From Opitutia bacterium UBA7350 (lineage in GTDB: Bacteria; Verrucomicrobiota; Verrucomicrobiia; Opitutales; Coraliomargaritaceae): 64,000 nt of DNA. Under the pieces are notes generated by a model, which was given only the letters and a program-made list of their open reading frames with translations, was not told the DNA's origin and did no database searches. Every line of letters begins with the position of its first letter. Position 1 is the stretch's first letter. Position numbers and translations under genes: made by a program. Below are positions 1,130 through 19,050 of this stretch, in pieces. The stretch covers positions 62,001 to 126,000 of the forward strand of contig CATINC010000017.1 of NCBI GenBank assembly GCA_949524905.1. Direction: 5' to 3'.

Positions 1130-2060
1130 GCGCCTCGCGGGCAAGGCCGTAACGAAGGTTATAGAAGGAATGCATCGCTGTTTCGCGCTGAGCATATTTT
1201 AGGACTGTTTCTATTGTTAAAAGGGAAATGGGGAGGATGTCTGCGCGGCGGGCGGGTAGATGCGGAATATTAAAGCGCTTATGAAGTGGGAGTTTAGCAA
1301 GCTCAGAACGCAATTTAGAAAGGGTTTTAAGCTTTAGAAAGGGAGAGGATGTTTCTATAGATTGATCTGCGCGAGCGGCAAGGATGGCGCGGGTAACGCT
1401 AGCCGCTCCACCCGTAATAATCAGTGGCCATTCTAAGGGCTGAAAATCAAAATCTTTCTTAGTTAATGTAGCGTGGATGTATTGAGAGATTTCAGCCTGA
1501 AGGATATCACTGAGAGGTATTTTGTGATCCTTGAGAAAGGCTTCCATAAGACGAACGGAACCCAGTTGGAGTGAAACTGCTTGCGTGATTTGATTTTTGG
1601 AAAAGCCAATGAGTTCGAGGCTACCTCCGCCAAGGTCCATTTGAAAAAAATGATCAAGACTTTTAAATTCTGGATCGCAAGCAAGTCCACGCCCGATGTA
1701 TTGGGCTTCCTGGTGACCGCTTAAGACCTGCATCTGGTGATTGGTTTGATTTTTTATGCAGTCGATGAACTGCGTGCCATTGCGCGCATCGCGCACAGCA
1801 CTGGTAGCTACCATACGAATGACTTCAGGCTCAAATTTTTTAGCTGAGCGAAGGAGTTTGCAGATACTCTCAAGGCCTTCATTCATTGCCGCTTCAGTGA
1901 GCTCAGGATCGGCATGACTGATTCCAGCGCTTATGCGAGTTTCAAGGGTCTCAGTAAAGCGTACTAGTAGATTGTTGTTGGGTGCCCTAATGCTGGCTAC
2001 CAATAGTTTAATAGAATTACTTCCGACATCAATGACGGCAACTGTTTTATCATATACCAC
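1119..2060 (-). CDS. Ppx/GppA family phosphatase
   Basis: Member of the exopolyphosphatase/guanosine pentaphosphatase family, which hydrolyses the terminal phosphate of polyphosphate or pppGpp in the cytoplasm. At 313 residues it is the short form with the two actin-like ATPase subdomains and no C-terminal HD domain. The phosphate-1 motif DVGSNSIK is at 11-18 and the phosphate-2 motif DLGGGSLEL at 142-150. The start is GTG 2060, because no in-frame ATG gives the conserved N-terminus. It runs against rluD and overlaps its stop by 11 bases, and it diverges from obg. Which substrate is preferred cannot be told from sequence. Confidence 0.85.
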
Positions 2061-2124
2061 TGAATATAGATGTGCTGTGTGCTTTGCAGTTGCAATGCCT
2101 ATGTCAGACAGGCAAAGGTGATGC

Positions 2125-3132
2125 GTGTTTTATGATGAAGTGAAAGTTAGCTTTTCGGCAGGAAAAGGTGGTGATGGCTGCTTTAGCTTTCGTCGTGCGA
2201 AGTATGAACCCAAAGGTGGCCCAGATGGTGGCAATGGCGGTCGCGGGGGTGATGTGTTTATTATTGGTGATGAAAATGTTGCGGATTTGACGACCTTTCA
2301 TTTTAAGCCTGGTTGGAAGGCGCGTAATGGAGAACCAGGGCGTGGTAGTAATCAATACGGAGCACAAGGTGAAGCAATCGAATTAAAACTTCCGGTAGGT
2401 ACGGTGGTATTTGACCGGGAAACAGATAGAGTCGTGGCAGAGGTCACAGAGCACGGAGAGCGAGTTCTTTTGCTCGAAGGAGGTGAAGGTGGAAAAGGAA
2501 ATACGGTTTTTAAATCATCCACCAATCAGGCACCACGAGAATTTACACTGGGTAAGTCGGGTGCATCCGGTGACTATCGTTTAGTGATCAAGACTATTGC
2601 CGACGTGGGACTGATTGGATTTCCGAATGCTGGGAAATCCACTTTGCTGAATATGGTCACTAATGCCCATCCAAGGACGGCTGCTTATCCATTTACGACA
2701 CTTTTCCCAACGGTTGGGGTTTTGGAGTTTCCAGATGATTATGAACGGATAACCGTTGCGGATATTCCGGGATTAGTAGAGGGTGCTAGTGCCAATCGTG
2801 GCTTGGGGCATCGCTTTCTCAAGCATATAGAGCGCTGCAAGGTTTTGCTTGTCATGGTTGATATGGAAGGCACGGATGATCGAGAACCCATCGCGGATTT
2901 GCGAGTCCTGCAGAATGAACTAACTCTTTATAAGGCGTCTTTATCGCGTAAACCAGTACTCGTTGCGGCCAATAAAATGGATGAACCCAAAGCGCTGGAA
3001 AATCTGAAAGTTTTCAAGAAAAAATGTAAGCACCCATTGTATCCAATCTCTTGTGTGTCGGATGAAGGGTTTGATGATTTGAAGTCTGCGCTCCTGGAGA
3101 CCGTACTAAAAGTGCGAGCAAAGGAAAGCTAA
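2125..3132 (+). CDS. obg: Obg GTPase (ribosome assembly)
   Basis: Essential GTPase that binds the 50S subunit late in assembly and links growth to stress signals. The 335-residue protein has the Gly-rich Obg fold at about 1-158 (many GG pairs between 14 and 42) and then the G domain: G1 GFPNAGKST at 165-173, YPFTT at 198-202, G3 DIPG at 213-216 and G4 NKMD at 283-286. The variable C-terminal OCT domain of some homologues is absent. The start is GTG 2125, preceded by an AAAGGTG-like ribosome-binding site at 2114-2120. A nearby ATG at 2121 is out of frame. Only 8 bases separate its stop from the convergent exosortase gene. Confidence 0.95.
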
Positions 3133-3140
3133 GCGCAAGA

Positions 3141-4076
3141 TTAGGCTTCCGCGTCTGAGCGAAGTGCCGAACGAGTAGGGCCTCCCATCAGAATCCAAAC
3201 CGTACATAGGCAAGTCCAGAAACTTGCAGCGCCTACGATTTCATGCATGAGGTCGTATTGTGTCATGGTATGGGGAGCAAGCAGGACAATGGCAACGATG
3301 CGGACGGCATTAAAAGCCATCCCAGTAAAAAGTGCAGCAATGAGGTTTATTAACAAGCTAAGTGGACGCAGTCGCTGGTATAAAGTAAGTAGAAGGGCAA
3401 GTAGCAGGCTGGTTAGGATAACGCCAAAACCATTGCACTCAGAGGCGACCACAAAAGGGATTTGATTGACGCTAAGAATGAGTTGAGGTGCGACTTCAGC
3501 GCTCTCTGAAATACCTAATTCAACGGATTTTCCAAGGAGGTTAAGTAGCTTTGCACTCCATTCTCCGGCAAGCGAACGCAGCGGCCAGTCAAGGGTGCTC
3601 ATAAATGTGCTTAGAATAATAAAGGTTCCAAAGCTGGCGCAGGCGGTGTAGGCAATGCGTCGCAATTGTACCCCAAAGATAAAAAGCACAAACGCACAAA
3701 GGGCACTGCAATAGGCCGTCACGCTGATGCTGCTGAGAGTAATATTACGCAAAAAGGAGGGCTCTGTAAGGCGATTCAAGAAAAAAGTAATGAGGATACA
3801 GAGATACGCGAGAAGGAGGCTATTGCGAGCAGGGCTATTGAGGGCGAGTGTCTGGGTTACTGAAATTCGGTTAAAGTACGCCAAAATGAAAACTGCAAAA
3901 ACAAGAACCAATAAAGCATTGAAGAAACGGCTTTGGTCTTGAGCACTGTTTGCGATCCATTGAGTGAGTGGCCAAAAGACAAAGCCGAGGCTAGCAAATA
4001 GGACAAGGTTGAGCCAAAAGTCCCATTTTTTTGATTTTTCACAGAAGCTTTCCAGGAGTTGCTTGCGAAGCGACAT
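3141..4076 (-). CDS. Exosortase/archaeosortase family transpeptidase
   Basis: Multi-pass membrane protease/transpeptidase that in other bacteria recognises C-terminal PEP-CTERM tails and processes or anchors the protein during export. The three catalytic residues of the family are all visible: Cys in SECNGFG (residue 214), Arg in FNAVR (259) and His in the MHEIVG segment (278), set among about eight hydrophobic segments. The start at ATG 4076 lies 2 bases past the dnaE stop; an ATG at 4103 would overlap dnaE by 25 bases and add nine residues, and neither has a clear ribosome-binding site. No dedicated polysaccharide genes are adjacent. The export module at 12-18 kb and the PEP-CTERM tail at 58.9 kb are the possible partners in the window. 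Exosortase subtype not assigned. Confidence 0.85.
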   Translation of the reverse strand: MSLRKQLLESFCEKSKKWDFWLNLVLFASLGFVFWPLTQWIANSAQDQSRFFNALLVLVFAVFILAYFNRISVTQTLALNSPARNSLLLAYLCILITFFLNRLTEPSFLRNITLSSISVTAYCSALCAFVLFIFGVQLRRIAYTACASFGTFIILSTFMSTLDWPLRSLAGEWSAKLLNLLGKSVELGISESAEVAPQLILSVNQIPFVVASECNGFGVILTSLLLALLLTLYQRLRPLSLLINLIAALFTGMAFNAVRIVAIVLLAPHTMTQYDLMHEIVGAASFWTCLCTVWILMGGPTRSALRSDAEA

Positions 4077-4078
4077 GA

Positions 4079-7000
4079 TTAAGAGGCACGTTTCTTTTGC
4101 CATTTGCGCCGATTATCCTCGGCTTGAACGGGAAGTGCTTTTATTCGGATGCCTGCAACGGCAGGGTGCCGACACAGGGTTTTGTAGTTCTCGCTATTAA
4201 TGGTAATTTTGAGTGCTTTTGAGGATTCAGTTTCAAGAATTTGATTATCGATCAAGAAACTGACAGCAACTTCAGAACTATGTTCTGTGGCTGTGCCACT
4301 TTCACGACTTTCTTGGTATTCATTGTCAATGGTCTCGCGCAAAAGTGGCAGGAATTCTTCAGTTTTTCGGTCAGGATGCAGAATAAAGTTAATTCTCTGA
4401 ATGAGGCGAGGTATGGAGGTATCTAGATCAAAGACATCGTAGCCGTGGAGAGACATTTCGCCGTTACGACGAGCTATTTGACCCTGCAGAAGTATTAATT
4501 TTTCATCTTCTAGGCGCGAGCGGTTGCGTTCATAGGCTTCTGAAAACATGACGATTTCGTAGTTATGCTTGCGTGTTGCGATCGTGAAGATGGCAAATTG
4601 CTTGTTATCCTTTTTTGTGTAGCGGGTCTGAATTCCGCTAAGGATGCCGCAAAGACGAAAAGTGCTATGGTCATCGAAGTCTTCGAGTTGCTCTGGTCCG
4701 GCAAAGGTGTCGAGGGCTATATCGAGTGCACGGTATGAGTCCATGGGATGACCCGAAAGATAGAGCCCTAAAAGTTCTTTTTCGTAGGCAAGCTTATCAG
4801 ATTTCGGCATGGGGGGCGCTTCCTGCCATCCAATGAGTTCACTTCCATGTGTAATATTTTTATCAAAGATATCAAGTTGGCCATTTTTTATATCCTCTTG
4901 CTGCCGTCGGGCAACTTCCAGTAGGAGCGGAAGGTTCATGAGGTAAGTTGCTCGGTCATGACCCATTGAGTCAAAGGCGCCAGTTTTGATCAGATTCTCA
5001 ATTGCTTTTTTGTTAATATTTTTATCGAGGACTCGCGAAAGCAAATTGAGCAAGGATATGAATTTACCATGCTCGCGCCTCTCGTTTATAATGATCTCTG
5101 CAGCTCCTTCTCCAACGCCTTTGATGGCGGCCAGACCAAAGCGAATACTGTGTTCCTCCTCTTCTAAAACAGGGGTAAATGTGTGCCCTGAAATATTAAC
5201 ATCGGGGCTAAGAACTGGCAATTTTAAGGCATTACATTCATCAAGGAAGTGGCCGATTTTGTCGGAATTTCCTTGCTCAGATCCGAGCACGGCAGCCATG
5301 AATTCAACTGGAAAGTTGGCCTTAAGATAAGCAGTGCGGTAGCTGAGCATCGCATAAGCTGCAGAGTGGGATTTATTAAAGCCGTATTCCGCAAACTTTT
5401 CTAGAAGGGCAAAGATCGACTCTGCGGTTCTGCGATCAATATCATTGGTCACTTTGGCACCGTTGATAAAGACTTCCTTCTGGGTATCCATGACTTCTTG
5501 GATCTTTTTACCCATCGCTCGCCGTAGAATATCAGCGCCACCAAGTGTGTAGCCAGCAATAATCTGAGCCGCTTTCATGACCTGTTCTTGATAGACCAGA
5601 ATGCCATAGGTTTCTTTAACTAAATCCTCTAAGAGGGGATGAGGGATCTTAACAATACTAGGATCTTTTTTACCCTGAATAAATTGATCAATGAATTGCA
5701 TGGGCCCTGGGCGATAAAGGGCAATTAGAGCGATAATTTCTTCAAAGGAACTCAGGCCTATTTGACGACACAGCTTTTGCATCCCACCAGACTCAAGCTG
5801 AAAAACCCCGGTGGTGCGTCCACTGTTGAGGAGTTTAAAGGTAGCCTCGTCCTTTAGGGGTACTTTCTCGATATCAAAGTCGGCCAGCGAACGATTCTTT
5901 CGTACGTATGTTTGAGCATCATCGATAACTGTTAAGGTTTTGAGCCCAAGGAAATCCATTTTCAAGAGGCCGAGTTCCTCGGAGGGGCCTTTGGGGTATT
6001 GAGTGGTGAGATCACCCTCCTGAAGGGTTACGGGTACAAGATTGGTAATCTCCTGGTCTGCAATGATGACGCCGCAGGCATGCTTTCCGGTATTACGAAC
6101 CATGCCCTCAATAACACGGCCTTGGTCAATAATACTTTGCGCAACGGGATTCTCTTTCACTTCCTTTTGAAGTTGGGGGGATTTCTTCAGGGAAGCATCG
6201 AGCGAAATATTGAGCTCGTCAGGAATCATCTTAGCAATTTTGTTCGCCTGATGGTATTCGATCTCATTAACGCGGGCGAGGTCACGCACTACCATCTTTG
6301 CTCCAAAGGTGCCGAAGGTAATGATATTGGCAACACGGTCTTTGCCATATTTTTCTCGGACATAGTTGACGACGAGATCGCGTCGCCGCATACAAAAGTC
6401 GATATCAAAGTCGGGAGGTGAGACTCGTTCAAGATTTAGCATCCGTTCAAATAGTAACCCAAAACTCAGTGGGTCGATGTCAGTAATTTTAAGAACGAAG
6501 GCTACAATGCAACCTGCGCCTGAGCCGCGTCCGGGTCCAACGGGAATATCTTCTCGGCGCGCCCAGTCGATGAGATCCCAGACGATTAGAAAGTAATCAA
6601 CAAAACCAGTACCTGTAATAATGGCGATTTCGTAGTCGAGTTGCTCGCAGTATTTTCGGTCTTCTGGAGAGGCGTTTTTCCAGTCTGCGCGACAGGCGTC
6701 ATAGTCGGCGCCATAACGCTCTTTGAGGCCTTCCTTGCAGAGCTCAAAGAGGAAAAGACCATTGGCTTTAAATACTTTGCGCTGTTCTGGATCGAGCGAG
6801 ATTGGTTCCTCGCCATCGCGGGTGAGGATGGTATTTTTTTCTAACTCATAAATATCAAGGATTCGGTCAAAGTTGACTTCGTCTTGACCATTCTGGATTT
6901 CAATGGGTCGTTCATAGACCGGGTAATGATCTTCGCCGAAAGGGAGCTTAACCTCACACATTTCCGCAACCGCAGATGTATTTGTGATGGCTTCAGGGTT

Positions 7001-10652: not shown

Positions 10653-10682
10653 ATTATAGTTTATCTACAACGGTTTTTTTTG

Positions 10683-11933
10683 ATGATATTTGTATTAATT
10701 TTTCTAATAGTCTATGCCTTGTTAGTTTTTGGTGAGACTAGTTTAGTCATGATACGTTATGGGAAGGTAGCGCGTGTGACTCTGGAGAAATTAAAATGCC
10801 GTAAGGGGCTTTTGAAAATAATTCTAGAGGGGAAACAAGCAGCAGAAGCGCTGCGTTTTGGTAAGGTTTTTTGCGTGATGGGCTTAGGGTTTCAGATTTG
10901 CTTTTTTGTATGGAAACTTTTGCCGCAAGCAAGTTTTGCGGCTTGGGTCATTTATCTCTTAATAGGTACAACAACACTGTTATTGATTTATTGCTTGGGT
11001 GAATTTTTGCCGAGGGCATTAGCATTGCGGTATCCCGCAAAGGCACTTCGGCTCGGTGCGCCTGTTTTGGCACTATTTAAATTACTACTCGTACCCATGA
11101 GAAAGTTCTCTCTTGAGCGAGTTATTTTTAAATGGTTAAAGGTAACCGATGTATTACCCAATCCTCTAGATATTGGAGTGCAGTTACGTGCTTTAGGTCA
11201 TGATAATACTACCCTCACGCTGGTTGTGCGCTCCATAATTAATCGATCGATCCAAATGCAAGATTTGGTCGTGCATGATGTGTTGTTGCCGCGCAATGAG
11301 GTAATCTTTTATGATTTAAACGAAGATGTGACAACTAACCTTGAGCGTATGAAACGCGCGGGACATACGCGTTACCCACTCTGCCGAGGAGACTTGGATG
11401 AGTGCCAAGGAATTATCCACATTAAAGATATTTTCCGTAGCGAAGAAGGCGAGCTATTGGTCAAACCGGATGCATTAATGCGACCAACGGCTAGTTTTCT
11501 GCTTGAAACTCCACTCGAGGATGCGCTGCAGCGGATGCTAAGAACTAAAATTCATATGGGATTGGTGCATGATGATTTTGGGGGTGTACTTGGTGTGGTG
11601 ACATTGGAAAGAATACTTGAGGAATTGGTGGGCGACATTCAGGACGAATTTGATAGCGAAGATGATCCTATTGAGGAATTGCAGGAGTCTGAACAGTACC
11701 TGATCTCTGGTCAGGCACCCATCCACGAAGTAGAATCGCGCTTGGGTGTGGAAGTTATCAATCAAGCGGTTTCCACTTTTGGGGGACTGATTGCCAGTGA
11801 ATTGGGGCGAATTCCAGAGGCAGGCGAATTACTGGAAGTCTCTGGTATGCGCATTGAGATTACACGAGTCGATGACCGGCGTATTCTTACCACACGCGTA
11901 AAGCTAGTAGCAGTGCCTGACGAGCAGACTTAA
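10683..11933 (+). CDS. CorC/HlyC-type CNNM and CBS domain membrane protein
   Basis: Inner-membrane protein of the CNNM/CorC family, linked to magnesium and cobalt transport in other bacteria. The 416 residues comprise an N-terminal CNNM (DUF21) region with three to four hydrophobic segments (about 1-140), a CBS-pair region at about 190-315 (containing MKRAGHTRYPLC and the EERIL-like VVTLERILEELVG stretch), and a C-terminal CorC/HlyC domain at about 335-410. ATG 10683 is chosen over the TTG at 10680. The last 4 bases (TTAA) overlap the convergent TPR gene. Substrate and direction of transport are unknown; older 'hemolysin' labels for the family are misleading. Confidence 0.85.
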   Translation: MIFVLIFLIVYALLVFGETSLVMIRYGKVARVTLEKLKCRKGLLKIILEGKQAAEALRFGKVFCVMGLGFQICFFVWKLLPQASFAAWVIYLLIGTTTLLLIYCLGEFLPRALALRYPAKALRLGAPVLALFKLLLVPMRKFSLERVIFKWLKVTDVLPNPLDIGVQLRALGHDNTTLTLVVRSIINRSIQMQDLVVHDVLLPRNEVIFYDLNEDVTTNLERMKRAGHTRYPLCRGDLDECQGIIHIKDIFRSEEGELLVKPDALMRPTASFLLETPLEDALQRMLRTKIHMGLVHDDFGGVLGVVTLERILEELVGDIQDEFDSEDDPIEELQESEQYLISGQAPIHEVESRLGVEVINQAVSTFGGLIASELGRIPEAGELLEVSGMRIEITRVDDRRILTTRVKLVAVPDEQT

Positions 11934-13606
11934 ATTTGTTCGGATTTAAAGCGAGTTACGGTCTCGGCATTTTGTCGCAGCATGGAGCTTAGCTCAATCA
12001 GAAGACTTTCACGATTAGGCGTAAAAATAAAGCGATCGCTTCCTAGTTTACGATATGCTTCTAGAATAATTTCGGGTTGAGGTCTACGCATTTGTAGGAA
12101 GCGCTTTAGAAGCCCATTTAAATTTTCGGTATATTCCAAACCCAGCTCTAACTTTATTAGTTCAGCGAGTACGCGTTGGTTAGCTGGACTTTGCTTGTAA
12201 GCTTCGAGGAGCACTAATCGTGCATTACTCAGTTCGTTGATTTTTATTAAACGACTTGCCACTGCATAGAATTGGGCGGGGCCAACATTCTCACTGGTTA
12301 AAAACTCATTGAGATAAATGTCACCGAAGTCAGGGCGATTGATTCCGTAGGAGGCGACCGCTCGTAAGCTGTTAAAAATATCGCTACGTTTGCTCAGCCA
12401 GTCTGGGCGCTCTTTGTCCAGTTCTCCTGCAAATGAGAGGGCGCCTTCGTAGTCTTTGTAAACTAGGTGGGCTTCAATCATTAATAGTGCGAAAGCATCC
12501 ACATTAAACTCGTTTTCTAATGCCTTCTCATAGCAGTGCCGTGCGAGTTCGATATTGCCGGTATCGGCCGCAAAGTTTGCTATTGATTGAAGTGCATTAG
12601 CATCATCTCCAAATTGCCTTAGAACACGCTTAATTTCACGCTCTTCTCGCACGGTGTCGCTACTTTTATTATAAATGTAAAGAAGCTCGATGCGAGGATT
12701 TGGGCTTAATGGATTGGCAAGATTGCGCATAATCGCATATTTTCTTGCTTCTTCGTTTTGGTTTAATTCGCGATGATAACGACTTAACTGAAGTAAAATG
12801 TCTTCGGTGTTTTGAAATTTCTTCAAATTGAGTTTCAATTTCCTAATTGCCGTCTGATGTTGCCCTCGATTCCAATTAATCTGGGCGGACAAAAGGACGC
12901 CTTCCACGGAAGCATTGAGCTCATAAATGGTGATGTAGTCGTCAGCACGATCGTAATTTCCACGGAGGAAATTTGCTTGAGCGGCACCAAAGGACAAAAT
13001 TCGATTCTTGTCTGTTATCTCAGGCTCTTCAGGGAGGTAGGTGTCTGCGATTTCTTGTATCTCAGCATCCATCTGATGGCTTAAAAACAAGCGTAAGGTC
13101 GTCTTTAAGTAATCTAGATTATCAACACCTCCATGCTCTAATCCTTGTTGTAGTAACTGGGTTGCAATGTCAGTACGTTTAATAATCTTGTCGTAAAAAT
13201 CTGCTAGCAGGATACGACCTTCCAAATTATCGGGCGATCGAGTCACCCCAAGGCGCAAAAAGGTTAGCGCCTCGCGGTATTCGCCTGCTTCTAGTTGTTG
13301 AATTCCTTTTTCTACATGGAAATCCCCCATTTCCTTTCGATGTTCATCAAGTCGAAAGGGTAGAGTCACCATTCCACCAAAAGATACGGTCTCATAGTCT
13401 TTTTTGTGTTTAAACCATAAGTAAAGAACCCCTGCGGTCGTTATCCATGCGGTCGCAAATAAGGCTAGAAAAACGCTGATTAAACGCATCCATCGTAAGG
13501 AAACCGTTATTTGTCCGTCAGGGCGCCTTTTTTGTATTGCAAACCCAAATAATATTGAGCGTTCAAGGGTTGCTGCTTTTGGCTTATTTTTAATATTATT
13601 CATCAT
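11930..13606 (-). CDS. Membrane-anchored TPR protein of the export locus
   Basis: A 558-residue protein with a cytoplasmic N-terminal tail, one membrane helix at about 44-67 and a long periplasmic alpha-helical region of repeated 34-residue-like units. Examples start at about 97 (GIQQLEAGEYREALTFLRLG) and recur through residue 500. TPR proteins of this layout accompany Wza/Wzc exopolysaccharide exporters, including exosortase-linked clusters, where they may scaffold the machinery. It is divergent from the outer-membrane barrel gene at 13769, so the two share a 162-base promoter region. ATG 13606 is followed by a second ATG at 13603 that could equally serve. No enzymatic motif is seen. Confidence 0.75.
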   Translation of the reverse strand: MMNNIKNKPKAATLERSILFGFAIQKRRPDGQITVSLRWMRLISVFLALFATAWITTAGVLYLWFKHKKDYETVSFGGMVTLPFRLDEHRKEMGDFHVEKGIQQLEAGEYREALTFLRLGVTRSPDNLEGRILLADFYDKIIKRTDIATQLLQQGLEHGGVDNLDYLKTTLRLFLSHQMDAEIQEIADTYLPEEPEITDKNRILSFGAAQANFLRGNYDRADDYITIYELNASVEGVLLSAQINWNRGQHQTAIRKLKLNLKKFQNTEDILLQLSRYHRELNQNEEARKYAIMRNLANPLSPNPRIELLYIYNKSSDTVREEREIKRVLRQFGDDANALQSIANFAADTGNIELARHCYEKALENEFNVDAFALLMIEAHLVYKDYEGALSFAGELDKERPDWLSKRSDIFNSLRAVASYGINRPDFGDIYLNEFLTSENVGPAQFYAVASRLIKINELSNARLVLLEAYKQSPANQRVLAELIKLELGLEYTENLNGLLKRFLQMRRPQPEIILEAYRKLGSDRFIFTPNRESLLIELSSMLRQNAETVTRFKSEQI

Positions 13607-13768
13607 TTTGCTGCAAAAAAGTTATAATGTAAAAAAATTACCTACGGTTCATTAAAATTCAACATAAATCTGCTGTACCGGCTTATTTAAAGCAATTTAA
13701 AGAAATTATAGTATTAAAGTGAGATATTATTGTTGACCTTTAAAGTTAAAAACCCACAAGTAAAAGCT
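13607..13768. promoter_or_regulatory. AT-rich divergent promoter region of the export locus
   Basis: This 162-base gap separates the TPR gene (left) from the barrel gene (right) and must carry both promoters. It is clearly more AT-rich than the flanking genes and has a TATAAT at 13623-13628, but I found no well-spaced -35/-10 pair and no convincing operator palindrome. Confidence 0.4.
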
Positions 13769-14917
13769 ATGATTCTGAAAAATTTAAAATTTTCACTGTT
13801 ACCTCTAGTATTTTTGCTGACAATGCATTCATCCCAAGGAGCACCACTAATGTCCATAGGCGACGTGGGAACTGTTTCTTTTACGGGTCAGACGGTTGCA
13901 AAATGGGATAGTAATATATTTAGACAGGAAAATGGTGAAGTTAGCGATAAAAGCTTAACGTTTTCTCCAGGTCTATCTGCGATTTTTGGTCGTAATGCGA
14001 GTAATTTGGACATTGGCGCATCTACAAGTTTAGACTTTGTGAGATACCAAGACAGAGATGAGCTTGATTCAGAGTTATTTCATTTTCAAACGACTGCCGC
14101 ATATCAATCAGGGCGCATACAATCATCGGCAATGTATAGCTTTGATGAAAGTAAATCTAATAATGAACTCACCAACGTCGCGGGTGACTTAGTCGAAAGG
14201 GAATCAGAAAAAATCAATCTCAGTGCTGAGTATACCCTTTCTCCTAAGTTTAGTTTCAAACTAGGTCATGAGATTGACGATGCTGTTTACACAGGCACCT
14301 ATGCTGCTACCTTTAGCGATAGAGCCTATACTAGGACACCGGTAAATGTCTTTTATGAACTTACGCCCAAACTCGACTTAAGTTTTGGTTATGTACGAGC
14401 TGATATTGATGTTGATGGTTCAAGTAATGATGCCACTACTGATACCTTCAATGTTGGTTTTCGTGGTGAATTACTGCCCAAGCTAACTGGAAATTTAAAA
14501 GTAGGTTTTGTCGATTATGAAAACGAAGGTGGTACACGCGATGAGACTACTCTCAGCCTGAAAGCAGACTTAAATTGGAAAGTCAGTAGCAAAATATCAC
14601 ATCGACTGGATTTATTTCGTGACTTCGATGCCGCATCAACCGGTTTTGGAACAGCAGAGACTAAAGTTAGATGGAATACTTCTTACGCGCTTGATAGTAA
14701 GACTTTATTAAGCGGTAGGGTTGGTTACAACATTCGCGATTACTTGAGCAGCAATCGTGAGGATAGTCTGCTAACGCTTGGCTTGAATGGTTCTTACAGA
14801 TTAAATAATTATTGGAACCTTAATGCAGGTTATGTTTTCTCAAAGAATGATTCTAACCTAGATGGATCAAGTTATGATGATAACATTATAACCTTCTCTG
14901 CTGCAATCACTTATTAA
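13769..14917 (+). CDS. Outer-membrane beta-barrel protein of the export locus
   Basis: A 382-residue secreted protein. From ATG 13769 it starts with a signal peptide (MILKNLKFSLLPLVFLLTM, cleavage near residues 22-25). The rest is built of alternating polar/hydrophobic strands with frequent aromatic girdle residues and acidic turns, ending in a terminal Tyr, as expected for a BAM-inserted barrel. It resembles the outer-membrane proteins found in exosortase/exopolysaccharide clusters. Wza- and Wzc-type genes follow on the same strand after a strong hairpin at 14947. The function (secretion pore or structural porin) is unknown. The frame opens at TTG 13730, but that start would place 13 residues before the signal peptide. 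Confidence 0.75.
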   Translation: MILKNLKFSLLPLVFLLTMHSSQGAPLMSIGDVGTVSFTGQTVAKWDSNIFRQENGEVSDKSLTFSPGLSAIFGRNASNLDIGASTSLDFVRYQDRDELDSELFHFQTTAAYQSGRIQSSAMYSFDESKSNNELTNVAGDLVERESEKINLSAEYTLSPKFSFKLGHEIDDAVYTGTYAATFSDRAYTRTPVNVFYELTPKLDLSFGYVRADIDVDGSSNDATTDTFNVGFRGELLPKLTGNLKVGFVDYENEGGTRDETTLSLKADLNWKVSSKISHRLDLFRDFDAASTGFGTAETKVRWNTSYALDSKTLLSGRVGYNIRDYLSSNREDSLLTLGLNGSYRLNNYWNLNAGYVFSKNDSNLDGSSYDDNIITFSAAITY

Positions 14918-14946
14918 AATTGAACTTAACTAGTTCTTACTGGTCT

Positions 14947-14974
14947 AAAAATGCCTCCTAGGAGGCATTTTTTT
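14947..14974 (+). terminator. Perfect-palindrome intrinsic terminator overlapping the wza-type leader
   Basis: A 26-base perfect palindrome centred at 14959/14960 (CCTCC/GGAGG core, A-tract before, seven Ts at 14968-14974) is a textbook intrinsic terminator for the barrel gene. It ends only 6 bases before the ATG of the export gene, and its right arm contains AGGAGG at 14960-14965. Confidence 0.8.
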
Positions 14975-14980
14975 AGTATT

Positions 14981-15613
14981 ATGAAAAGCATGAAGTTATT
15001 TACATTTATTATTACCGCATTCTTCATTCAGAATTTAGTTGCGCAAGAGACAAGTGGTAACAGCAGTTATGGTGATAATAATGCTTCTGCCTCATCCTCC
15101 TCTTATGGCATAGCTGTAGGTGAGAATTATATTCTTAAAACCTCAGACGTGATTGAACTGCAGGTCTACCAAGAAAGAGATCTTACAAAAGCAGTGCGTA
15201 TTGAAGGTGATGGCACCGTAGCTTTAGCACTTATAGGTAAGGTAAAACTGGCAGGTATGACCGTTGCAGAAGCCCAATCTTTGGTGACAGACCTATACAA
15301 CCGTGATTATCTTGTTGATCCTCAAGTAGCACTCCAAATTGTCGAATTTGCACCTAAATTCGTACATGTTTTGGGTATGGTTGGTTACCCTGGTAAAGTG
15401 CCGATGCCGCCAGACTCAGATTTAACCCTAATTGATGCAATATCACAAGCAAGGGGAGTGACGCGACTAGGGAATGCTAAGAAAGTGCGCATAAAGCGCA
15501 ACGATGGAACTAAACCTTTTGACGTAAATTATGACGAAATTCGTCGGGGTGAAGCAAAGGACATTATACTCAATGAAGGGGACACTATTACCATCCCAGA
15601 ACGGATCATCTAA
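14981..15613 (+). CDS. Wza-type polysaccharide export protein
   Basis: Periplasmic/outer-membrane protein of the polysaccharide export family, which forms the channel through which chains cross the envelope. From ATG 14981 it has 210 residues: a signal peptide (about 1-22, ending FIQNLVAQ), a Ser/Tyr/Gly/Asn-rich linker at about 23-45, the Poly_export domain at about 46-125 (YILKTSDVIELQVYQERDL), and a SLBB domain at about 126-205 (VHVLGMVGYPGKVPMP). No lipobox cysteine is present, unlike classical Wza. The autokinase gene follows 14 bases later. The frame is open from 14951, but that start lies inside the terminator hairpin. Confidence 0.88.
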   Translation: MKSMKLFTFIITAFFIQNLVAQETSGNSSYGDNNASASSSSYGIAVGENYILKTSDVIELQVYQERDLTKAVRIEGDGTVALALIGKVKLAGMTVAEAQSLVTDLYNRDYLVDPQVALQIVEFAPKFVHVLGMVGYPGKVPMPPDSDLTLIDAISQARGVTRLGNAKKVRIKRNDGTKPFDVNYDEIRRGEAKDIILNEGDTITIPERII

Positions 15614-15627
15614 AAACAAATTTCAAA

Positions 15628-18003
15628 ATGAAGAATAACTACGTAAAAGGAGGGCCAGACCCCAATACAGGTGGCTATGGAGGCTACGGTTATGGTTACG
15701 GATCAGGCGGCAATTACGGATCAGGCGGCAATTACGGATATGGCGGCAATTACGGATATGGCGGCTATGGTTCTGAAGGCTATGGTAATTCCGGACCACG
15801 TCGTACGGCGCGTGATTATGTCCTCATGTTTCGAGAGCGGGTATGGTTTCTCATTGTTGCTTTCTTTATCATCTTTTCCGGGTCGATTCTTTATACATTT
15901 AATAAGACAAAAATTTACACCGCAGTTGCCACTATGCAGGTTCTCAGGGATGATCCTGCTGCAATTGAGGAGGGCGAAGAGATGGAGCCCAATCAAATTC
16001 GCAGTGCAGAAGATTTAAACACTCAAATCAGTGTTTTGAGTAGTTTGTCAATAATTCAGGGGGTTCAGCAGCGTCTTCAAGAAGATGAACTAAAACGCTT
16101 CATGGCACCCTACCAGGATGCTTTTACCTTTACAGGAGCGTTAACGCCAGGAGATGTTTTAGGTAAGAATAGAAAAGTGATTCCTCAGCGTATGAGTCTC
16201 ATGGTTAACATAGCTTATACGCATCCGGATCCCATCATTGCAGCACGAGTGGCTAATCTTTTTGCGGAAGAATTTATCAATCATAATTTAACTAAGAGCA
16301 TTGATGCAGCCATGAAGGCGGTTGAAGATTTGCGAGTTCGTGCGGACCAGCAAAGAGAGCGTGTTGAAGAACTTGAATTGGATTTAGCTGAGTATCGCGA
16401 AAAACATAATGCTGTATCTTTGGATCAGCAGGAAAATATTGCCGGCGAACAGCTCAGAACCTTAAACGCAATTAAGTCTGAAAATAAAAATAATTTTGAT
16501 ATTGCCGAAACCAAGTGGAATTTAGTTGAAACATATCGTCGTGAAAAGCGAGATTTGTGGGAATTAGCATTCATAGCAGAGCAATCACGTGTAGCCTACC
16601 TGTTGCAGGCTATTTCTGGCGCAAAAATTGAAATTTCATCTCTTGGTAAACGCTACCGAGATAAACACCCTACGATGATATCTCTAAATCAGACCTTACG
16701 TGAATCTGAATCAGAGCTTTCACTTGCGGTTGAGAATGCAGTTGAAAAAATTTATGCTAATTATTCAGAAGCTAAAGAGAATTTTGAAGTCGCCAGTAAA
16801 CGACTTGCGGAAAAAGAAAAAGAACTGATTGCACTGAGCAAAACAGGTGTTGAGTACAACACACTCTCACGAGAATTTGACGTACAACAAGGATTTCTGC
16901 AAGCGATTGTAAGTCGCATGACTATGCAGAAAACTTTGGTAAATCTAAAAAATCCAAATGCTCGTATTATAGATAAAGCCTTGCCTCCAATTCGGCACTC
17001 TTCGCCTAACATTTTAATTAACTTATTGGCTGGGGCTTTCGGCGGAATCACTACAGGAATTTCATTGGTCTTAATCGTCTCATTTCTTGATGATCGGATT
17101 AAAAGTGCTTTCGATATTGAAAGTTCTGTCGGGCTCTCATTGCTTGGGGTGATCACCAAAATCAAGAAGCTCGACACGGCATCTAAGGCACAAGCAGTTG
17201 CTTCAAATGCAGATCGGCATGTTACCGAGACTTTTAGATCAATTTACTCATCGCTTCGACTGAGCGAAGAAAGTAAAAACGCTAAGGTTATCCTCACTAC
17301 CAGTACAGTTCCCAGTGAAGGCAAATCATTTATCAGTTCGAATATGGCGCTGACCTTCGCAAATCACGGTGACAAAACATTGCTATTGGATGGTGACTTG
17401 CGCCTTCCTAATGTGGCTAATTCTATGCAGCTAGAAAATGAGAAAGGGCTTTTGAATCATATTCAATCAAAAGACAATCTGGATGATTTGATCATCAAAG
17501 AAGTTTACCCCAACCTCGATGTTTTACCCACGGGCGGAAAGTCAAAAAACCCGACCCAAATACTCAATGGGTCTGAATTTCATGACATGATCGCTGAATT
17601 AAGAAATCGCTATGATCGCATAGTGATTGACTCCCCACCGCTGGCAGCCGTTAGCGATGCTTTAATTTTATTACCTTTAGTAGATGGCGTTATTTATGTC
17701 ATCAAGTTTAATGCTGTGAAGCGTAAAACTGCTATTGTTAATGTTCGTCGACTTTGGGAAACAAACGTCCCTGTTTTTGGCGCAATTTTGAATTATGTCT
17801 CCACCGCTATGTCGAGTTACTATTATTCACAGTACTCCGACAAGAGCTACAAGAACTATTATACGTCTGCAGAAGATGAATTTGGCAACGATTTTGAGCC
17901 CCTTGTTGACGATAGCCAAGGGGAGGAATCAGACCTCGAAATCGCTGAAGAAGGACCTAAGGACGCAAAAGAAAGGGAGCACGATCTCAATCAAAGTACC
18001 TAG
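15628..18003 (+). CDS. Wzc-type chain-length/tyrosine autokinase with Gly/Tyr-rich N-terminus
   Basis: Inner-membrane polysaccharide co-polymerase fused to a BY-kinase; phosphorylation cycles of its tyrosine tail control chain export. In 791 residues it has: a Gly/Tyr/Asn-rich repeat segment (about 8-55) that normal Wzc proteins lack; a Wzz domain with the first membrane helix at about 70-92; a long coiled-coil region at about 230-430; a proline-rich motif ALPPIRHSSP before the second membrane helix at about 465-488; and the kinase with Walker A PSEGKS at 562-567, Walker A' LDGDLRLP near 587-594 and Walker B IVIDSPP near 665-671. The tail carries a Tyr cluster (SSYYYSQYSDKSYKNYY, about 728-744), the usual autophosphorylation site. 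A terminator follows at 18036. Confidence 0.92.
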   Translation: MKNNYVKGGPDPNTGGYGGYGYGYGSGGNYGSGGNYGYGGNYGYGGYGSEGYGNSGPRRTARDYVLMFRERVWFLIVAFFIIFSGSILYTFNKTKIYTAVATMQVLRDDPAAIEEGEEMEPNQIRSAEDLNTQISVLSSLSIIQGVQQRLQEDELKRFMAPYQDAFTFTGALTPGDVLGKNRKVIPQRMSLMVNIAYTHPDPIIAARVANLFAEEFINHNLTKSIDAAMKAVEDLRVRADQQRERVEELELDLAEYREKHNAVSLDQQENIAGEQLRTLNAIKSENKNNFDIAETKWNLVETYRREKRDLWELAFIAEQSRVAYLLQAISGAKIEISSLGKRYRDKHPTMISLNQTLRESESELSLAVENAVEKIYANYSEAKENFEVASKRLAEKEKELIALSKTGVEYNTLSREFDVQQGFLQAIVSRMTMQKTLVNLKNPNARIIDKALPPIRHSSPNILINLLAGAFGGITTGISLVLIVSFLDDRIKSAFDIESSVGLSLLGVITKIKKLDTASKAQAVASNADRHVTETFRSIYSSLRLSEESKNAKVILTTSTVPSEGKSFISSNMALTFANHGDKTLLLDGDLRLPNVANSMQLENEKGLLNHIQSKDNLDDLIIKEVYPNLDVLPTGGKSKNPTQILNGSEFHDMIAELRNRYDRIVIDSPPLAAVSDALILLPLVDGVIYVIKFNAVKRKTAIVNVRRLWETNVPVFGAILNYVSTAMSSYYYSQYSDKSYKNYYTSAEDEFGNDFEPLVDDSQGEESDLEIAEEGPKDAKEREHDLNQST
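15700..15771 (+). repeat. 18-bp in-frame tandem repeat in the autokinase gene
   Basis: Four 18-base units start at 15700, 15718, 15736 and 15754. Units 1 and 2 are identical (GGATCAGGCGGCAATTAC), unit 3 differs at two bases, and unit 4 has diverged at its end. They encode GSGGNY/GYGGNY hexapeptides. Near-identical DNA in adjacent units points to recent slippage or unequal exchange, and unit number may vary between strains. Confidence 0.85.
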
Positions 18004-18035
18004 CCTAGAAGAATTTAAATCTTTTTATAAGTAAA

Positions 18036-18066
18036 TAGCCCGATACAAATATCGGGTTATTTTTTT
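18036..18066 (+). terminator. Intrinsic terminator after the autokinase gene
   Basis: A 10-base stem (TAGCCCGATA with TATCGGGTTA, one G-T pair) around a 4-base loop is followed by a run of seven Ts at 18060-18066. It closes the export operon and may also slow transcripts arriving from the convergent tsaC side. Confidence 0.85.
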
Positions 18067-18069
18067 GCG

Positions 18070-19050
18070 CTATTTTGCAGCGGCACGCTTTAGGCGATCA
18101 TTAATGGCAAGCCCAATACCGCTATTTTCCGCAAGCTCTATCGTGATCTCCTTGTATTTCTGTTCGTCAAGATTCTGCAGTAATGCAAAAAGATTGTTTG
18201 CTGCCGTCTCCAAGCAACCGTCTTCGGAGAGCCAATGATAACCAGGGTGGTGGATTAATTTTTGCGACTTCTTGATAGACACAATGGCCTGCGATCCAGC
18301 AATTGTCTTTACTGCTTCAACCAAGGCCGTTTGATTTACAAGGTGAACTCTAGCTCTAGGGCTATAATGCTTACTTAGCAAACCGGGTGCGTTTTGAGCA
18401 CGATTCTCATTACGAGTAGTTGTTTGGACCAAAAGCGGGTAGTTGAGATGCTGCTCCAGCATAATTGGATCTATGGGTCCATAGCGTAGGAGCAAAGGCT
18501 TATTTTCATTGCGAGCGTCAATGATAGTGGATTCCACGCCATGCAAGGTACGACCACCATCCAGAATCGCAGTGATTTTTTCACCTAAAGTCCTTTTGAC
18601 ATGGGATGCTTCAGTCGGGCTCACATAGCCAAACGGATTAGCGCTTGGCGCGGCTAAGGGTACTTTAGAGATTTTAAGTAATTTCTGTAGTTCTGTTTGT
18701 GAAGGAACACGAATTGCTACGCTCTTTAAACCTGCAGTTACAATATCTGGGATAAGTGCTTTTTTTTGAGCAATGATTGTGAGCGGACCTGGCCAGAACT
18801 GTTTTGCTAAATGATCGATAAGGGAATTATTTACAATCAATTCTAAAGCAGCAGTGTAATCAAAGCAATGTACAATCAGTGGGTCAATTAGTGGCCGTCC
18901 TTTAATTTCAAAAATCTTACGTACGGCGGTCTCGCTCAAAGCATTACCCGCTAATCCATAAACAGTTTCGGTTGGAACAGCGACTATATCATCCTTCCGG
19001 ATCAGTTCTGCGCAAAGCTTTAGGTTTTTACTATTGGAGCTTAAAATCAT
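18070..19050 (-). CDS. tsaC: Threonylcarbamoyl-AMP synthase (TsaC/Sua5 type)
   Basis: Makes L-threonylcarbamoyladenylate for the t6A37 modification of ANN-decoding tRNAs, in the cytoplasm with TsaD/B/E. The 326 residues are the long Sua5 form: the YrdC domain (about 8-200) with PTETVYGLAGNA at 26-37 and the KGRP substrate motif near 50-53, then a C-terminal Sua5 domain introduced by SKHYSPRARVHLV. ATG 19050 fits the family start. It shares strand with rpsR, but rpsR has its own terminator in between. No odd features. Confidence 0.92.
   Translation of the reverse strand: MILSSNSKNLKLCAELIRKDDIVAVPTETVYGLAGNALSETAVRKIFEIKGRPLIDPLIVHCFDYTAALELIVNNSLIDHLAKQFWPGPLTIIAQKKALIPDIVTAGLKSVAIRVPSQTELQKLLKISKVPLAAPSANPFGYVSPTEASHVKRTLGEKITAILDGGRTLHGVESTIIDARNENKPLLLRYGPIDPIMLEQHLNYPLLVQTTTRNENRAQNAPGLLSKHYSPRARVHLVNQTALVEAVKTIAGSQAIVSIKKSQKLIHHPGYHWLSEDGCLETAANNLFALLQNLDEQKYKEITIELAENSGIGLAINDRLKRAAAK

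Follow-up and report, generated by a model that had tools for sequence, protein, structure and literature searches.

A conserved Gly/Tyr-rich N-terminal tail on a Wzc-type tyrosine autokinase of Verrucomicrobiota, a possible second phospho-acceptor region

The cytoplasmic start of Escherichia coli Wzc is a short stretch followed by helix alpha-1, which comprises residues 17-30 in the K30 structure (PMC8285477, available sections). In the portions of two papers available to us, alpha-1 is described as packing against the helix that forms the base of the C-terminal tyrosine tail and transmitting the state of that tail; during stepwise tail phosphorylation the alpha-1 contact is lost and the membrane helices rotate, and the fourth phosphate causes the octamer to fall apart (PMC8285477, PMC11986026). 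The YxY motif is said to register tyrosines in the active site and the i-2 pocket of Wzc (PMC11986026, available sections). The route from tail phosphorylation to polymer length and export is a matter of current research, and in these excerpts it is modeled with the C-terminal tail only. For Streptococcus pneumoniae, a title cited by PMC4574921 names a C-terminal (YGX)4 repeat domain of the autophosphorylating kinase CpsD, and the accessible text of the same paper states the acceptor role for the "tyrosine cluster". According to an excerpt of PMC4340800, the co-polymerase Wzd of Lactobacillus rhamnosus is tyrosine-phosphorylated by the kinase Wze. Titles and abstract openings in the open-licence literature searched revealed no earlier account of a Wzc-type kinase with a Tyr-rich segment at its N-terminus, and the available portions of PMC7485978 and PMC12881504 do not mention an N-terminal Tyr-rich tail.

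We analyzed a 64,000-nucleotide stretch of DNA from Opitutia bacterium UBA7350 (the window). Based on TIGR01007 and PDB matches, the forward-strand gene at 15628-18003 encodes a Wzc-type polysaccharide co-polymerase/tyrosine autokinase of 791 residues, and all features of this protein given below lie on the same strand. In profile searches the protein scored 152.4 bits against TIGR01007 (cut-off 108.05), as a BY-kinase domain should, and the solved relatives matched in the PDB search were Wzc, VpsO, and CapAB. Pfam Wzz reached 21.1 bits (cut-off 25.5), and TIGR01005 and TIGR03017 aligned over the Wzz region with scores under their cut-offs. A single wzc-type kinase match was obtained in the 1.67-Mb host genome (99.97% complete), and this was the sole such protein found there. 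The first membrane helix (TM1) was located by hydropathy scans at about residues 72-91 (15841-15900), and TM2 was read from the sequence only. In the family alignment A1, Walker A (STVPSEGKS, residues 559-567, 17302-17328) is invariant, and Walker A-prime (LLLDGDLR, residues 585-592, 17380-17403) and Walker B (RIVIDSPP, residues 664-671, 17617-17640) were also placed; by pattern, the three motifs were detected in 72, 70, and 71 of 72 orthologues, respectively. The ordinary C-terminal tyrosine cluster is also retained, as the original prediction held: it occupies residues 731-745 (YYYSQYSDKSYKNYY; 17818-17862, alignment A1) and has at least five Tyr in 72/72 orthologues. Residues 58-71 (RRTARDYVLMFRER; 15799-15840, alignment A1) form a juxtamembrane segment at the position of Wzc helix alpha-1, in which D63, Y64, R69, and R71 are invariant or nearly so, and this segment is probably equivalent to alpha-1.

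The kinase gene belongs to a block (10680-19050) consisting of a CBS gene, a TPR protein gene (reverse strand), a beta-barrel gene, wza, wzc, and a convergent sua5 gene (reverse strand). This block is common to distant families of the order; among distant members it was whole at two loci (L169 and L170) and partial at two others (L171 and L175), and only wza-wzc was found at L172. The divergent TPR protein gene (11930-13606, reverse strand), which is conserved in synteny, encodes an N-terminal hydrophobic stretch, and the outer-membrane beta-barrel gene omp (13730-14917, forward strand; BBP2_2, EpsL-like) was assigned by profile matches and synteny. Pfam matches to Poly_export (6.8e-19) and SLBB, together with synteny, identified the wza-type export protein gene at 14981-15613 (forward strand), 14 bp upstream of wzc. 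Its ATG at 14981 was preferred over the listed start at 14951 because the latter falls within an intrinsic-terminator-like hairpin (14947-14972, forward strand) between omp and wza. As expected of the PCP-2a type, the export gene adjoins the kinase gene: wza lay next to wzc in 30/30 loci (L001-L030) examined by tblastn. Between the signal peptide and export domain, the Wza proteins of the host's family carry a low-complexity Ser/Gly linker that has 0-2 Tyr, a counterpart across the membrane that is almost without Tyr; Tyr is thus no general low-complexity habit of the locus. Two low-molecular-weight phosphatase genes were found in the host genome. One (G000:C5) has the signature CTGNICRSP, and the second, beside a permease-like gene, looks arsenate-reductase-like by sequence; locus L144 carries a phosphatase. 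An exosortase gene (3141-4103, reverse strand; PF09721, 4.8e-23) lies about 11 kb from wza-wzc, and a stronger exosortase match is located elsewhere in the host genome (G000:C4).

Residues 1-58 of the kinase contain 12 Tyr and 24 Gly, all ahead of TM1. By composition, the Gly/Tyr-rich low-complexity tail proper covers residues 15-56 (15670-15795), with Tyr at 11 and Gly at 22 of its 42 positions; against family body frequencies, the binomial chance of this content is 5e-9 for Tyr and 1e-19 for Gly. The open reading frame, repeat finding, and composition agree that the Gly/Tyr repeat domain claimed on the kinase N-terminus is real, in frame, and before TM1, and its predicted length of about 48 residues is close to the approximately 42 found. 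Tandem Repeats Finder detected an 18-bp tandem repeat of 3.9 copies with 96% match at 15696-15765. The near-identical 18-bp units of the original prediction are therefore present, but such exact repetition is local: what the orthologues conserve is the composition, not the repeat unit. The tail is preceded by a conserved N-terminal box (residues 1-14, MKNNYVKGGPDPNT; 15628-15669), recognized in alignment A1 and in the family N-termini, whose form in the host's family is MKNDYVRGxPDPNSGG. Two further open reading frames with repetitive translations (15671-16018, forward strand; 15721-15996, reverse strand) represent the repeat in other frames and are not genes. When a second GY-rich protein was sought in the host genome with TAYGGNTAYGGN, a pattern blind to GY segments without YGYG, none was detected; 4 of the 21 matches fell in the tail and the remaining 17 were not in GY-rich frames.

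The absence of a strong Shine-Dalgarno sequence ahead of the ATG at 15628 might indicate a wrong start codon, with translation beginning closer to the membrane helix. However, this ATG and the box are conserved, as orthologues from the host's family share this start position and open with MKN[DN]Y.... Distant orthologues have lost the box but retain a Gly/Tyr-rich frame ahead of TM1, and no conserved later start was seen among the orthologues. Translation from a start closer to the membrane is thus extremely improbable, and a true start at residue 60 or later, which would leave the repeats unexpressed, is excluded by the conserved start codon as far as sequence can tell.

To survey the tail, genomes of 57 relatives, 286 members of the class, and 288 members of the phylum Verrucomicrobiota were searched (these sets overlap), and N-termini were examined for every orthologue-level match and for a group of paralogue and outgroup kinases. 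Each distinct protein entered the counts a single time, and start codons were picked by rule and a short motif list. In total, 127 proteins were kept, comprising 72 orthologues with more than 700 bits and 55 others with less than 590 bits against the family profile. The orthologue set was scored against alignment A1, which includes the tail, and the gap in bit scores and a tail-free tree served as guards against circularity. L042 (broken ORF) and L048 (N-terminus cut off by a contig end) were dropped by the length filter; the count for L041, which lacks a clear start Met, includes some upstream residues, and L049 contains a run of X. A single scan of the genome contigs yielded two loci, both already among the whole-genome loci.

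The tail was found in 72/72 distinct complete orthologues across the host's order, down to 33% identity, so that the repeats are far from absent in close relatives, the outcome that would have spoken against the original prediction. Every one of the 72 has three or more tail Tyr, and five or more are present in 69, the others being L071, L075, and L085 with 3-4; because the orthologues share ancestry, these counts are not independent. Loci L031 and L032, from metagenome assemblies labeled Opitutia bacterium and Verrucomicrobia bacterium, belong to relatives of the host genus. Among the non-orthologue kinases (paralogues and outgroups), at least five Tyr occurred in the N-terminal tail of 2/55 (L091 and L113) and three Tyr in one more. 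Tailed kinases coexist with untailed paralogues in G048 (L040/L046), G070 (L069/L094), and G171 (L082/L115), among other genomes. At the dropped locus L042 (G015, 1444-3760) a frameshift splits the kinase, and part of the GY tail lies in another frame before the original frame returns; this break is likely due to long-read assembly indels, or is possibly a real split. L113 (398-2566, reverse strand) and L091 (387-2591, reverse strand) encode short GY tails on kinases outside the main clade. No tail was found in family relatives of L113 at any of the 24 further loci read, and L091 comes from the sole genome of its order in the set.

A kinase tree, built without tail columns, included 39 orthologues out of the 72 and the complete set of 55 non-orthologues. 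The 39 tailed representatives grouped together with SH-aLRT support of 99, next to untailed kinases of the same order that formed a clade of their own, and the tail label required three changes on the tree, a number that 0/500 shuffles matched. On the simplest reading, the tail would stem from a single gain at the root of the lineage, followed by retention, and similar tails would have arisen separately in L113 and, perhaps, L091; since L113 alone carries a tail within its family, it looks like a separate gain. A constraint placing all 41 tailed rows in one clade, a grouping chosen after the tree was known, was rejected (AU p 4e-5). The N-terminal Gly/Tyr tail on this Wzc-type autokinase is thus real and lineage-wide, and its order-wide conservation suggests a second switch region.

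The aromatic residues of the 72 tails, with starts corrected for upstream residues, were 620 Tyr, 10 Phe, and 0 Trp, compared with 1083 Tyr, 1598 Phe, and 199 Trp in the bodies of the same proteins. A similar skew was observed in their C-terminal clusters (541 Tyr, 16 Phe, 0 Trp). Tyr-Gly occurred at 445/620 tail tyrosines, giving the repeated Tyr-Gly-X of a CpsD-like (YGX)n domain, and YxY was present at least once in 67/72 tails. Tyrosines two and three residues apart were enriched (168 and 129 observed vs 105 and 80 in shuffled tails), adjacent tyrosines were depleted (28 vs 138), and gaps of 7-11 were rare (13 in all vs about 70). The excess at spacing 2 held in 31 thinned tails (76 vs 51.5; reached by 0/300 shuffles). 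Spacing 12 was also in excess (29 vs 4.7 in shuffles), probably owing to the box conserved in the host's family. Tail length ranged from 28 to 94 residues among the orthologues, with the composition persisting and Lys, Arg, and Glu low, and the last tail Tyr lay 15-27 residues (median 18) ahead of the RERxW segment. A spacing of 2-3 with few adjacent tyrosines fits phospho-acceptor and clustering ideas alike and favors neither.

Our best explanation, held tentatively and at slightly less than even confidence, is that the tail may be a cytoplasmic, probably disordered, second phospho-acceptor region of the Wzc-type autokinase. This reading is based on the retention of the tail throughout the order (72/72) and its single clade on the tail-free tree; on a Tyr-only bias matching that of the C-terminal cluster, the acceptor region of known BY-kinases; on Tyr-Gly repetition like that of CpsD (YGX)4, frequent YxY, and retained kinase motifs; and on the location of the tail directly before the alpha-1 position, the Wzd precedent, and the phosphatase at L144. 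The near-exclusion of Phe and Trp, the CpsD-like repetition, and the kept kinase motifs all strengthen the case for the "second set of tyrosines" originally proposed. In the eight-protomer ring, the GY tails would hang beside the kinase active sites, and their tyrosines, mostly 2-3 apart, would be phosphorylated in trans, as the C-terminal tail tyrosines are. As extra acceptors near neighboring active sites, they could let tail charge modulate the alpha-1/TM1 lever; the added charge would alter this coupling and loosen or re-tune the ring, and hence chain growth and export. A low-molecular-weight phosphatase with the CTGNICRSP signature might then reset the tail. Unphosphorylated, evenly spaced tyrosines could bind tails together, in which case phosphorylation would also switch self-association. 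An AlphaFold2 model of the window protein and two relatives (three sequences) had a mean pLDDT of 32.5 and was uninformative, so it is by analogy with E. coli Wzc that the tail is proposed to reach an active site.

The main rival of the acceptor reading, a serious one though less probable, is a sticker-and-spacer scaffold, in which evenly spaced tyrosines on a Gly/Ser/Asn backbone associate within or between rings and form export foci, phosphorylation being incidental. The enrichment of Tyr spacings 2-3, the depletion of adjacent Tyr, and the rarity of gaps of 7-11 agree with such a scaffold, as do the low Lys, Arg, and Glu contents and the varying length with persistent composition. Tyrosine without Phe or Trp also occurs in sticker-type disordered domains; however, Phe and Trp are good stickers too and are nearly absent here, and the protein itself is a tyrosine kinase with its motifs kept. 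The scaffold and acceptor roles can coexist.

Two other explanations were weighed. The Tyr/Gly repeats could serve as a docking platform, a recognition motif for a partner in the cytoplasm or membrane such as a glycosyltransferase, Wzy, a TPR protein, or a division protein, and the conserved neighbors, a TPR protein among them, are in line with this, as is the box MKN[DN]YVxGxPDPN conserved ahead of the repeats in the host's family. Outside that family, however, the box is lost and the GY stretch stays, so there is no constant docking motif, and we regard docking as unlikely. Near-neutral repeat expansion, whereby slippage-prone Gly/Tyr codons lengthen a dispensable N-terminus that has no function, would explain why the 18-bp units are nearly identical and why the length differs among relatives. 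It is disfavored and in our judgment very unlikely, given the retention of the tail in 72/72 complete orthologues down to 33-50% identity, its Tyr-only aromatics, and its absence from paralogues of the same genomes.

A more specific proposal, to which we give only a minor share of our confidence, is that the eight GY tails of a ring would form a phospho-switchable, gel-like plug that contains some 60-100 tyrosines and fills the space separating the kinase ring from the membrane. Unphosphorylated tails would be cohesive and ring-stabilizing, and tails charged by the kinase would repel each other and open the ring. If this plug exists, it would add an autophosphorylation cluster at the end of the protein away from the known one, and this second cluster would be ancestral to the whole order. 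A Tyr-only segment beside the signal-carrying helix offers a natural experiment on two tails, and would be a bacterial case of a disordered Tyr/Gly segment fused directly to a tyrosine kinase.

Compared with known systems, the window protein appears to share the order of parts of E. coli Wzc (PDB 7nhr and 3la6): a short cytoplasmic start, TM1, a periplasmic domain, TM2, a kinase with Walker A, A-prime, and B motifs, and a C-terminal Tyr tail. The difference lies before alpha-1, where E. coli Wzc has about 16 residues and the window kinase has 57 that are rich in Tyr. In the exosortase-linked XrtB system, EpsE, EpsF, EpsG, and EpsL resemble the wza, wzc, and omp products in sequence, and the window contains an exosortase gene. 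All four equivalog scores were nevertheless below their cut-offs (EpsE 90.2/262.65, EpsF 131.2/422.75, EpsG 91.6/313.8, EpsL 46.3/275), and the EpsF-like and EpsG-like parts are fused in the window kinase. In the Wzd/Wze system, the co-polymerase part is itself tyrosine-phosphorylated, and here such a role is proposed for the tail; in contrast, Wzd and Wze are split proteins with scattered tyrosines, and the available text of PMC4340800 reports no GY repeat. The likeness to CpsD, as far as the title and excerpt describe it, consists of Tyr-Gly-X repeats within a BY-kinase system. The Wzd and CpsD precedents make an acceptor role less exotic. The CpsD repeat is C-terminal on a separate kinase subunit, whereas the present one is N-terminal on a fused co-polymerase that also has the ordinary C-terminal cluster; because of this location, the tail may work like the CpsD repeat rather than being one.
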